The translations under genes were made by a program, and so were the position numbers. Below, piece after piece: positions 26,695-33,052 of a stretch of 64,000 nucleotides of DNA (its first letter is position 1; every line of letters begins with the position of its first letter). Below the pieces are notes generated by a model that worked only from the letters and a program-made list of their open reading frames with translations, searched no databases and was not told where the DNA came from. This DNA comes from Halohasta salina (GTDB lineage Archaea; Halobacteriota; Halobacteria; Halobacteriales; Haloferacaceae), in assembly GCF_024178165.1 (NCBI RefSeq), contig NZ_JAMZIE010000001.1, positions 682,001 to 746,000 on the forward strand, read 5' to 3'.

Positions 26695-28191
26695 ATGTCG
26701 ACGGAACAATCGAACGTCGGGCAGAGCGAGCAGGCGGGTATCGAAGACGGACTGATAGCCAATGCACAGGGGGCGGTGGGTGTGGTTCACGCCACCTCGG
26801 AGTCGGTCGACGAGCGGCTCGATCTGATCCGCGAGGCCGCCAGCGCGCAGGTCGAGGACATGGAGTCAGTTGCCGAGGACGTGACCGACCTCAGCGCCAC
26901 CATCGAGGAGGTCGCCGCCAGTGCCGACGAGGTCAGCGAGACGACCGAGCGGGCGGCAACGGCCGCATCCGACGGTCGAGAAGCCACCGGTGAGGCGACC
27001 GAGGCGATGGAGGCGGCCTCGACGGCCACCCAACAGGTCGCCGCCCGGGTCGAGACGCTCGAAGCCGAGATCGACCGCATCAACGAGGTGGTCGACGTGA
27101 TCGACGACATCGCCCAGCAGACCAACCTCTTGGCGCTGAACGCCTCGATCGAGGCCGCCCGCGCCGGCGAGGAGGGCGACGGGTTCGCGGTGGTCGCCGA
27201 GGAGGTCAAGAGCCTCGCCGAAGAGTCCCAGTCCCGCACCGAGGAGATCGAGACCGCCGTCGACGAGATCCAGTCGGTGACCGACGAGTTGACCGGCGCG
27301 CTCGACGAGGCGGTCGACGCCGTCGAAGCCGGGGCCGACGAAGTCGACACCGCCGAATCACAGTTGGATATCGTCGACGACGAGATGGCGTCGGCGGCCG
27401 CCGGCGTCGAGGAGGTCTCGGAGGCAGTCTCGGAAGGCGCGGAGGCCAGCACGCGGGTGGCGAACGTCACCCGGAACACCGCCGATGCAGCACGGGAGAT
27501 CGAAAGTTCGGTCTCCGAGATCCACGACGAGCGGGCCCAGACGACGGCCCTCCTCGGCGAGATCGACGACGCACTGTCGACCGCGCGCCAACACCGCGAC
27601 CGCCGGCTCCGGGCGGCCGACAGGGTGCCGACCGGGCTCGACGACTTCGACCGCGACGGCGGGCTTCCGGCGGGCTCGCGGGACGTGATCCTCGCCGACA
27701 CCGACGGCTCGACGACCGACCGCGCCGTCGACGAGGCGGTCGCCGGCTTTGCTGCGGCAGCCGTCGACGCCGGCTGGGCGGTCTCGCTGTCGCCGACCGC
27801 CTCGATGGACCGGTCGACGCTCGCCTCGGTCCTCAAACGGGAGGCCGGGGTCACCCTCGACGACGCGCTGGCGAGCAACCGACTGTTCGTCCTCGATCTC
27901 TTCGGTTCGTGGCGGCCCGAGGAGAACGTGATCGACGTCACCGAACACGGTCTCTCGCGGGCCAACAGTCAGGTCGACGCCAAGCGGGACCGGCCCTGTG
28001 TGGTGATCGGTAACATCGCAGGCGAACTCGATCTGATGGGCGAGGCGGCGGTTCGGGAGAACACCTACGACAACGACGGCGAGACGTTGAGCGACGACGA
28101 TCTGGTGGTGAACGTGGTCGACGAATCGGCGGTACCCAACCAGCTCCAGTCGTTCTACGTCGGCGCGGCCGACACCATCTGCCACCTGTAG
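26695..28191 (+). CDS. Soluble methyl-accepting transducer fused to degenerate KaiC/RecA-like domain
   Basis: 498 residues with no membrane helix. Residues about 40-300 form the coiled-coil signalling domain; its hairpin tip reads [38 protein letters not shown], located about residues 142-179, the CheA/CheW contact. From about 311 the chain changes to RVPTGLDDFDRDGGLPAGSRDVIL, which mirrors the KaiC/RadA opening (TG-x-x-x-LD-x-x-x-GG-G-P-x-GS). The position of Walker A is ADTDGSTTDRA, lacking the GKT, so ATP binding is doubtful. LFVLDLFGSW sits where Walker B would be. It probably senses a cytoplasmic cue or docks another protein. No UspA or che gene other than its neighbours gives a clue. 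Confidence 0.88.
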   Translation: MSTEQSNVGQSEQAGIEDGLIANAQGAVGVVHATSESVDERLDLIREAASAQVEDMESVAEDVTDLSATIEEVAASADEVSETTERAATAASDGREATGEATEAMEAASTATQQVAARVETLEAEIDRINEVVDVIDDIAQQTNLLALNASIEAARAGEEGDGFAVVAEEVKSLAEESQSRTEEIETAVDEIQSVTDELTGALDEAVDAVEAGADEVDTAESQLDIVDDEMASAAAGVEEVSEAVSEGAEASTRVANVTRNTADAAREIESSVSEIHDERAQTTALLGEIDDALSTARQHRDRRLRAADRVPTGLDDFDRDGGLPAGSRDVILADTDGSTTDRAVDEAVAGFAAAAVDAGWAVSLSPTASMDRSTLASVLKREAGVTLDDALASNRLFVLDLFGSWRPEENVIDVTEHGLSRANSQVDAKRDRPCVVIGNIAGELDLMGEAAVRENTYDNDGETLSDDDLVVNVVDESAVPNQLQSFYVGAADTICHL

Positions 28192-29297: not shown

Positions 29298-30176
29298 ATG
29301 TCAACTACCGACGGGAGCGAGACGGTCGAAGTCGACAAACAGTCCCTCGTCGAGATACGGGATCTGGTCGCGGAACTCGAACAGAGCGGCCAGACCGTCG
29401 GCGAGATGATCGAGGCTAACAGCGAGGTCATTCAGGGGTACGAGCCCAAACTGGAGCGGATCACCGACGAGGTGTCGAACCTCACGGCGACGATCGAGCA
29501 GATCGCCGCCACGGTCGATCAGGTCGACGAGCAGGCCGAGCAGGCGACGACGCTGGCTCAGGACGGCGCGCAGTCGACTGCGCAAGCCGTCGAGGCGGTC
29601 AACGACGTCGCCGAGGCCTCCCAGACGGTCTCCGAGGAGGTGACGAACCTCAAACGGAAGGCCACCGAGATCGACGAGATCGTCGAGGTGATCAACGGGA
29701 TCGCCGAGCAGACCAACCTCTTGGCGCTCAACGCCTCGATCGAGGCCGCCCGCGCCGGCGAGAGCGGCGACGGCTTCGCGGTGGTCGCCGACGAGGTGAA
29801 AACGTTGGCCGGCGAGTCACAGGAGAACGCCGAGACGATCGAGGAGATGATCACCGCGATCCAGCGGTCGACCGAAAACACCGTCGAGAGCCTCGATACG
29901 ATGAACGACCGCATCGACACCGGCATCACCGACATCGAGAACGCGGCGAACTCGCTTTCGACCATCGCCGAGCAGATCGAGGGGGTCTCCGACAGCCTCG
30001 ATCAGGTCGCACAGGCGACCGACGATCAGGCCGACAGTACACAGGAGGTCGCCACGCTCGTCGACGAGACCGTCGAGGGGCTCGCCGACGTCATCAACGC
30101 CATCGAAAACACCCAGTCGGCCGCGACCGATCATCAGGAGACGATCGCACAGCTCCGGCGCGAGGTCGAAGAGTAG
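29298..30176 (+). CDS. Minimal cytoplasmic methyl-accepting transducer
   Basis: 292 residues, entirely soluble coiled coil. The signalling tip is [38 protein letters not shown], about residues 134-171. Only about 50 residues precede the coil ([21 protein letters not shown]), too little for a known sensor domain, so it may receive its input from another protein. Two runs of alternate helices flank the tip. It lies in the same strand and cluster as the fused transducer and the UspA pair. Confidence 0.92.
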
Positions 30177-30214: not shown

Positions 30215-31213
30215 TCAATCGAGCCGCATCGCCGCATCCCGGTCGACAAGTGGGTCGGCGTTGGCTGTCGGCAGCGTGACGACGTCCTCCGACCGGAGGG
30301 TGTACTCCCGGCCGTCGACGCCGAAGATCTCGCCGACGTTCTTCGTGATTCTGAGAGTCGTGCGATCCTCGTCGTCGGTGTCGGCCGCCGAATCACCGTT
30401 GGCTTCGGCAGCCCCTCCAGCGGTTGCTGTCGTGGCTGGCTGCTCGGTCGACGGCGCGTCCGCCGGGACTTCGGTGGTCGTTCCGCCGTCGGTCGAGGGT
30501 TCGATCACCGCCTCGGGCTCCGGTTCGGCTTCGGGTGGTGGGATCTCGTTCGGCGTACGGTCGGTCGGCGCTTCGGTCGACGCCTCGGGCGCGGCGTCGG
30601 CCGGCGTCGTGTCGGTCGGAGCCGCCGGATCGTCGACCGTCCCGGCGTCGGTCGGGGCGGGCTGCTCCTCGCGGTCGGCCGCCGGCTCCGAGCCGCCGCC
30701 CATCGCGTCGGCGAGCACCCCGTCGGCCGCGCCGTCGGCCGGCTCCGACTCGTCGACCCGCTCGGTCGGTGACGGTGGCGCGGCCGGCTCCCCCGCCGGC
30801 TCGGGGTCGGTGGTACTCGGGTCGGATTCGCCCGACAACACGTCGAGGACGCTCCGTTTGTTCCGCTCGATCCGGTCGACCAGATCGTCGAACAGTCGTC
30901 GCTCCTCGGAGGTCATCCCCTCGTCGTCGACCGGCATGTCGGCAGCCGCGAAGGAGGCGAGTTTGACCACCTTGCCGACCCGGCGCTCGTAGACCGCCTC
31001 GGCGACCTCCGTGGCGGTGTCGAGTTCGTCGGAGAGCTGCCGGACTTCGTCGTCCGAGAAGGGATCGTCGACCTGCTGGGCGCGGCGATCCCGGCTGGCT
31101 TTGAGGTCCTGAAGATAGGCCGCGACGTCTTCGTAGAAGGAATCGCGCAGCTGCTGGAGGCTGTCCTTGCGGCGTTCCTTCGATTGGACTGTCCGAAGCT
31201 CGTCGAGTTTCAT
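30215..31213 (-). CDS. gins: GINS complex subunit (Gins51 type)
   Basis: 332 residues. The A domain is N-terminal ([62 protein letters not shown]) and the small beta-rich B domain is C-terminal ([29 protein letters not shown]), the A-B order of Gins51/Sld5-type proteins. Between them lies an about 140-residue Pro/Thr/Ala/Glu-rich disordered linker, much longer than in crenarchaeal homologues. GINS joins MCM and GAN at the replication fork. The gene overlaps priS by four bases, the usual arrangement in archaea. Confidence 0.93.
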
Positions 31214-32364
31214 ACTTTTTCGGCCTCGCCGCGCGCCATGAGGAAGACGCCGACGTGTTCTGCTACTGTGTGTGTACCCGGCTCCAACTTAGTTATGTCG
31301 CCGTCGAGTTCGACCCGCCGTGGCTCGTCGATGTCGATCTCGACCGAGCCCCCGCGAAACGGCTCGGGGACCGCGTCGACCAGCGGGTCGAAGGCGTCGA
31401 GCGCCTCGCGGTCGATCGGCGTAACGACGAGCCCGCTGCCGCCGTGGAGCGACTTCGGGAGGCGAATGAGTCGGTGGGTGTCGGTGGTCACCGGCTCGTC
31501 GATCGGGGCGGATTCGGCGTCGGCGACTCGCTGGGCGAGACTATCGGCCAACAGCCGGATCCCCGGCCCGCCGGCCTCCATGTTGCCGGCTGCGATCGCC
31601 TCGCGGTTCGCCGAGACGGCCCCGAGGATCGTCTCGGCGCGGCCTTCGCCGATGCCGTCGATCGCGGTCAGCCGTTCGAGGGCTGCCGACTCGTCGAGGC
31701 CGTCGAGGTCGTCGACGAACGCCACCAGCGCCGCGTGGACCCGCCGGCCCCAGCCACCCTCGGTGCGGAGCACGCGCCGGGTCGTCCCGCCGGCCGAGAC
31801 CGTCCGGATCAGCCCGTCGGTGTCGAGGTTTTCGGCCAGCACGTAGTCGACGATCTCCCGGCGAGCGTCGCTATCGAGGTCCTGTATCTCCGGGTCTCGC
31901 ACGTGGACGTGATACCCTCGGCCGCCCGAGAAGACGACGCTGACGTCGTCGAAGCCGAAATCCGCCTCGACGAACGCTAACAATCGGTGGAGGGCGTCCT
32001 TGCAGGCGGCCAGCATCTCCGCGTAGGTGGCCTCGCTGGGGTCGACGCTCGGCAGGTGGTCGGCGTCGAGATCGAAGACGAGATCCGCCCCTCGCCATCC
32101 CTTCTGGGACATCGTGCTCGCCGAGGGGTCGGTGTAGCGGGCGGCCGAAAAGTAGACGTGCCGCGGTGACTCGCGGGCCAGAAAGTCGTCGACGTCGCCG
32201 AGATCGAGCTGGGACTGGTGGCGAACCATCGTCGTCCCCGTGCCGGGCGTCCACGGGATGTGGCCCCACTCGCGTTCGTTGGCCGCCGGCGGGAGGGCGA
32301 CCGTCGACTGGCGGTAGTAGTCGCCGAACCGCTCGCGGAGGTACTCCCGGGTGGCGTCGTCCAT
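31210..32364 (-). CDS. priS: DNA primase small (catalytic) subunit PriS
   Basis: 384 residues from the ATG at 32364 ([20 protein letters not shown]). The active site is visible: [12 protein letters not shown], the catalytic pair in [13 protein letters not shown], and the nucleotide-binding [29 protein letters not shown] is the C-terminal catalytic motif (S-x-H). It makes RNA/DNA primers with PriL. The longer open frame to 32568 is not supported. It is first in the priS-gins unit. Confidence 0.97.
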
Positions 32365-32542
32365 TCGACTTTTCGTTATGGGGAGGCTACTTAAGTCGTT
32401 GCCGTTCGATCGGCAGGCAGAACCAGCCGGCTTGGTCGTGGCAACCGGCTGGTGACTACCGGTCCGTAGCCGAAAACAGCGTGCCGACCAACCCGACTCA
32501 ACACTTACGGACCGAATGGCCGAGGGTCGACCTGTGGTTCCC

Positions 32543-33052
32543 ATGACCGTCGAAACCCTCCACGACAAGTTCGTTTACGAGCTCCAGCAGGCGTACTACA
32601 TCGAAACCCAACTGGTCGACGTCCTCGAAGAGATGGATCAGACCACTGCCGACGAAGAACTCAGCAACGGCTTCCAGCGCCACCAGCGGGAGACCGCCGA
32701 GCAGGCTCGACGGCTTGAAGACGTCTTCGAAGCCCTCGACGAGCGGCCCGACGCATGGCAGTGTCACGCCCTCGATGGCCTCGTCGAGGACCATTCGGAG
32801 TTCCTCGAGGACGCCGCCGCGGACGACGACCTGATCGACCTTTACAACGTCGGCGCGGGGGTGAAAGTCGAGCGACTGGAGATCAGCGTGTATGAAGGAC
32901 TGCTCAACCACGCCACCGAACTCGAGTTGCCGAACGAGGTCACCGAACCGCTCGACGAGACCCTCGACGAAGAGGAGGCCACGCTCACGGAACTCGAAGG
33001 CGCGATGAGCGGGTCGACCATCCAACAGCTGTTCGGTCGGCTGACCGGGTAA
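32543..33052 (+). CDS. Ferritin-like DUF892 (YciE/YciF-type) protein
   Basis: 169 residues from the ATG at 32543 ([21 protein letters not shown]). All-helical with the DUF892 pattern: the first helix carries E-x-x-Q-A-YYIE, later [20 protein letters not shown] with Glu and His as potential di-iron ligands, then [18 protein letters not shown] and [19 protein letters not shown]. Members bind two metal ions in a four-helix bundle and are stress induced. It is divergent from priS. Confidence 0.9.

Follow-up and report, generated by a model that had tools for sequence, protein, structure and literature searches.

A soluble taxis transducer of Halobacteria with an inactivated KaiC-like domain as its candidate input module

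Related receptors and KaiC-like proteins

The soluble receptor TlpD of Helicobacter has a C-terminal CZB sensor domain that acts from more than 140 Å away on the kinase interface (PMC12871147). In haloarchaea, the cytoplasmic transducers Car/Htr11, Htr13 and Htr15 are soluble Htr proteins, some of them bound by CheW2 (PMC3579733). The protein described here is encoded in a 64,000-nucleotide stretch of the Halohasta salina genome (the window, meaning the whole stretch that was analysed). It shares with TlpD a cytoplasmic MCP hairpin with a (here putative) sensor placed after the second helix, but the sensor of TlpD is a zinc-binding CZB domain and not a KaiC fold. We know of no KaiC-type domain in Car/Htr11, Htr13 or Htr15.

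Inactivated KaiC domains (iKaiC, DUF835, MEDS) occur in archaeal signalling proteins and, like the domain in the window, are KaiC-like modules without ATPase motifs (PMC5847659). The fusions listed in that paper are with REC, PAS and HalOD1, not with MCPsignal, and the window protein has no match to the Pfam MEDS profile (PF14417); a Haloferax relative reaches E 0.021 and 15.1 bits with that profile, against a cut-off of 29.8. ArlH (FlaH) and CirA/CirD are also KaiC-like and are tied to archaellum function or motility, including in Haloferax (PMC13286277). These proteins are described with ATPase features (PMC13286277, PMC3941300), whereas the fused domain lacks such features and forms one piece of a receptor. 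Both parts of the window protein are of known kinds and their fusion is apparently undescribed: no earlier report of an MCP-KaiC fusion was found in the searchable literature, which did not include the main 2017 paper on the KaiC hub (10.1128/mBio.01959-17), and absence is to that extent unproven. A statement in the first-pass annotation, that some of these KaiC-like proteins are annotated as HTR-like, could not be confirmed.

The reading that we prefer, with a probability of roughly 0.6, is that the protein is a cytoplasmic taxis transducer in which a dead, nucleotide-free KaiC-like domain serves as the input module at the base of the hairpin. If correct, this would define a new sensor class among archaeal taxis receptors. 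It would also provide a direct physical link between the bacterial-type chemotaxis system and the archaeal KaiC-like network, a proposed signalling hub that is already connected to motility through ArlH and CirA/CirD.

The transducer and its terminal domain

The gene occupies positions 26695 to 28191 of the forward strand (ATG at 26695, stop codon at 28189-28191) and encodes a 498-residue soluble MCP with a C-terminal inactivated KaiC-like domain; the reading frame is the one originally annotated. The N-terminal part is indeed a normal soluble methyl-accepting coiled coil with an intact CheA-binding tip, and the coil extends to about residue 307. In the full-length model (pLDDT 82.9, pTM 0.57; a monomer, though a dimeric protein is expected), a helix of residues 10-156, a turn at 157-162 and a second helix of residues 163-307 make up the receptor hairpin (residues 10-307, positions 26722-27615, forward strand). 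The MCPsignal profile PF00015 matches residues 100-257 with E 1.5e-40 (139.3 bits against a cut-off of 34.6). The CheA/CheW-binding tip, residues 137-176 (27103-27222, forward strand), includes the hairpin turn and is largely invariant, with many fully invariant columns, across 25 aligned fusions. A pattern scan for methylatable E/Q pairs gave a single strict match, and residues 67-76 (SATIEEVAAS, 26893-26922, forward strand) are on that basis a candidate methylation site. No transmembrane segment was seen in the window protein, whose highest 19-residue hydropathy is 1.41 (clearly membrane-bound transducers from the same genomes score 2.1-2.8), and the receptor is accordingly predicted to be soluble and cytoplasmic. 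CheA is encoded by the window genome as well.

The second helix runs directly into the C-terminal domain of the model without a flexible linker, with a confidence of 86-90 at the junction. The domain comprises residues 309-498 (190 residues; 27619-28188, forward strand) and was delimited from the model, from PDB matches to KaiC and ArlH, and from hhalign alignment to the second (CII) half of two-domain KaiC-like proteins. A KaiC-like opening had been noticed from about residue 311, correctly: residues 311-329 (VPTGLDDFDRDGGLPAGSR, 27625-27681, forward strand) are conserved among the fusions with a mean top-residue frequency of 0.69. The ATP loop is absent, again as noticed at first, and residues 335-344 (DTDGSTTDRA, 27697-27726, forward strand) lie where the P-loop would be expected. 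The loss goes further than that first description, which mentioned Walker A; the domain is also without Walker B and without the catalytic glutamates. The strand at the Walker B position, residues 434-440 (PCVVIGN, 27994-28014, forward strand), has GN in place of the acidic residue.

Taken alone, the C-terminal domain has no significant sequence match in Pfam, NCBIfam or the PDB, and it does not exceed the cut-off of the KaiC ATPase profile PF06745. Modelled alone, it gives a pLDDT of 90.4 and a pTM of 0.89. The top Foldseek matches of this model are ArlH/FlaH (the best), Sso2452, KaiC and PH0321, and its VIA-align Z scores are 15.0 for PH0321 (3bs4), 14.2 for KaiC 3k0f (matched in its second domain) and 13.8 for ArlH/FlaH 4wia. 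RAD51/RadA chains score slightly below the KaiC-like structures. A KaiC-type fold of the RecA superfamily is supported by this prediction; the claim draws on the CII sequence link together with structure, because profile comparison with active CI domains matched the first 50 columns only (E 2.7e-4). Structure prediction and structural searching produced no unrelated fold. The original "KaiC/RadA" label stands as far as a RecA/KaiC fold without nucleotide motifs is concerned, and can be narrowed to a KaiC-type, CII-like domain. An origin from RadA was rejected, given the lack of ATPase motifs, the better KaiC-type structural matches and the sequence homology to CII. PH0321, the match with the highest Z score, is an uncharacterised KaiC-like protein of Pyrococcus; its structure contains a bound peptide of unknown identity, which hints at peptide binding by domains of this kind.

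Among 37 fusions, none has a Walker A motif or the catalytic-glutamate pattern [ST][TS]E[EQ], and GN[IV] occupies the Walker B position in 36; G439 and N440 are invariant in the 25 aligned sequences. The former P-loop is hypervariable, ranging from 4 to 28 residues, whereas strands 3, 4 and 5 are strongly kept, together with their ends that once faced the nucleotide. The conserved elements are LFVLD, the GN at the Walker B place, R-x5-ND and NVV. One could imagine from the conserved active-site side that a rebuilt site binds a nucleotide or phosphate compound and so reads the energy state, in keeping with the proposal that KaiC-like proteins are archaeal signalling hubs (PMC5847659). The missing motifs, the GN substitution and the variable length of the former phosphate loop all argue against such a residual nucleotide sensor, which we regard as highly improbable.

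Eight species pairs give dN/dS ratios of 0.12-0.31 for the domain, indicating at the sequence level a domain that is under purifying selection and is repurposed rather than decaying. In one fusion, from Halovenus carboxidivorans (L058, 6095-7663), the reading frame is broken between the two parts of the protein, close to the former P-loop, so that the gene is split into two ORFs; the adjacent kinase gene is intact. This split gene fits a decaying, non-functional C-terminal tail, an explanation that has next to no probability in view of the dN/dS values and of the conservation of the domain, as one clade, in 14 genera of the sample, which represent four families.

A more serious alternative is that the dead KaiC domain is purely architectural and takes no part in signalling: it would only dimerise, space or localise the array of soluble receptors, for instance at a cell pole. 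Oligomerisation is a property of KaiC-type domains, this one is placed where the hairpin has its base, and the variable N-terminal residues offer no alternative anchor. Conservation at the strand ends on the old active-site side (LFVLD..FG.W....NV and GNIAGE..MGE.A.RE..Y.ND) nevertheless exceeds what a spacer needs, and the linkage to a sensor kinase in one clade of fusions (see below) suggests signalling. We therefore consider a purely architectural role unlikely, while some of the conserved residues may be kept for dimerisation and not for sensing.

Origin and distribution of the fusion

Relatives of the domain in 118 related genomes include transducer fusions at 47-87% identity and proteins of about 500 residues with two KaiC-like halves at 24-32%. 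In the two-domain proteins, the CI halves contain Walker A, the catalytic glutamate motif and Walker B in 19 of 19 cases; Walker A and Walker B are each found in 0 of the 19 CII halves. By hhalign the fusion domain aligns with CII end to end (E 1.3e-37, 222 columns), and the comparison of the CII and CI profiles gives E 7e-7 over 56 columns. In a tree, 35 fusion domains form one clade that is sister to the 19 CII domains with support of 100. The C-terminal tail of CII is retained in Haloarcula fusions (DGREYLTLTASPRGTVG, compare DGLQYVTLRKSPCGFVG) and is gone from the clade of the window protein. These sequence relationships point to a single origin, in which a CII-type domain joined a transducer once.

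Because the CII relatives lack Walker A and Walker B and the fusion domains stand as one clade against them, the ATPase site had most probably become inactive before the domain was fused to a transducer. The first-pass annotation described a domain that had lost its Walker A; the absence was real, and the place of the loss was not this gene, as the motif is already missing from the related CII domains. Local decay was rejected, given that an intact Walker A was found in none of the 37 fusion homologues and given the state of CII. A two-domain protein is found in the same genome (G000:C21:37561), and its CII is likewise homologous to the fused domain end to end and without Walker A or B. The two-domain proteins differ from the fusion in having a CI ATPase that is intact and in lacking a transducer. 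The copy in the window genome stands alone, away from taxis genes, and several genomes with two-domain matches have no CheA.

In an even sample of the class, 45 of 391 genomes (14 genera, four families) contain a strong match to the domain; the MCP fusion was checked individually for 37 proteins and inferred from frame length for the remainder. Among the named carriers are Halohasta, Halonotius, Halorubrum, Haloarcula, Halomicroarcula, Halosimplex, Halorientalis, Halovenus, Halorhabdus, Halobellus and Haloferax. This architecture is old and widespread in haloarchaea, and since it is conserved across so many genera the arrangement is not due to chance. The initial suggestion of a sensor or docking module in a cytoplasmic taxis receptor remains plausible; what has changed is that the protein is no single oddity. 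CheA is present in 45/45 fusion genomes, compared with 314/391 overall (Fisher p 4e-5, uncorrected for relatedness), and archaellin genes occur in all 12 carriers tested. Plasmid and phage records gave no match. The genome that carries one Halonotius-type fusion (L101) is from a different family, suggesting horizontal transfer; the nearest kinase is elsewhere in that genome.

Neighbouring genes and the possible input

In one clade of fusions (clade ii: Haloarcula, Haloferax, Halorientalis and others), a gene for a PAS-HATPase histidine kinase adjoins the fusion in 21 of 23 loci, in most cases overlapping the fusion stop codon by 1 or 4 bases. The co-directional adjacent kinases cluster in a tree, with one long-branched outsider among them, and another two linked kinases, in a divergent (L104) and a convergent (L115) layout, belong to a nearby kinase clade. 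No kinase neighbour was found at the examined loci of the window's own clade. An orthologue elsewhere in the window genome was sought and rejected: the nearest kinase is 42% identical and falls outside the main adjacent-kinase clade.

The kinase linkage, in all three orientations, could also mean that information flows the other way, with the transducer reporting to or scaffolding the PAS histidine kinase so that a two-component pathway is served and taxis is secondary. That would sit poorly with the lack of a kinase neighbour in the window's clade, with the presence of CheA in every carrier and with the largely invariant CheA tip, and it seems to us rather improbable.

The preferred reading, that of an input module, draws on the architecture, the predicted fold, the motif loss, the single origin, the conservation and the co-occurrence with CheA and archaellins. 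A partner protein or a non-nucleotide ligand would bind the dead KaiC-like domain and shift it, and the shift would reach the tip through the second helix, which is continuous. The altered tip would then change CheA activity and, through it, the archaellum switch. In clade ii the adjacent PAS histidine kinase is the likely input partner; the idea of a partner rests on that clade because the window's clade has no kinase neighbour. Overall, the input is probably a protein partner, with a small ligand at somewhat less than even odds. Cultured carriers such as Haloferax denitrificans and Haloarcula vallismortis make the function testable, with the adjacent kinase as a candidate partner. A far more speculative variant is that a six-membered ring of KaiC type is formed or capped by the six dead domains of a transducer trimer-of-dimers, perhaps with participation of the two-domain KaiC-like ATPase of the same cell, so that the taxis array would directly read the state of a KaiC-like hub; we give it little credence.

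No conserved neighbour was found in the window's clade; genes for stress proteins come after the fusion in Halohasta and its near relatives only. In the window, two universal stress protein (Usp) genes (PF00582; 28271-28717 and 28790-29221, forward strand) lie directly downstream of the fusion. ORFs of similar size follow the fusion in Halohasta litorea (two) and in a related MAG (one). A second soluble transducer of 292 residues, bare of any sensor domain, is encoded 1.1 kb downstream (29298-30176, forward strand) and is absent from the corresponding place in Halohasta litorea. Beyond it, on the reverse strand, a gene for a protein with a Gins51 C-terminal domain (30215-31213) overlaps by 4 bases an ORF resembling the small primase subunit (31210-32568).
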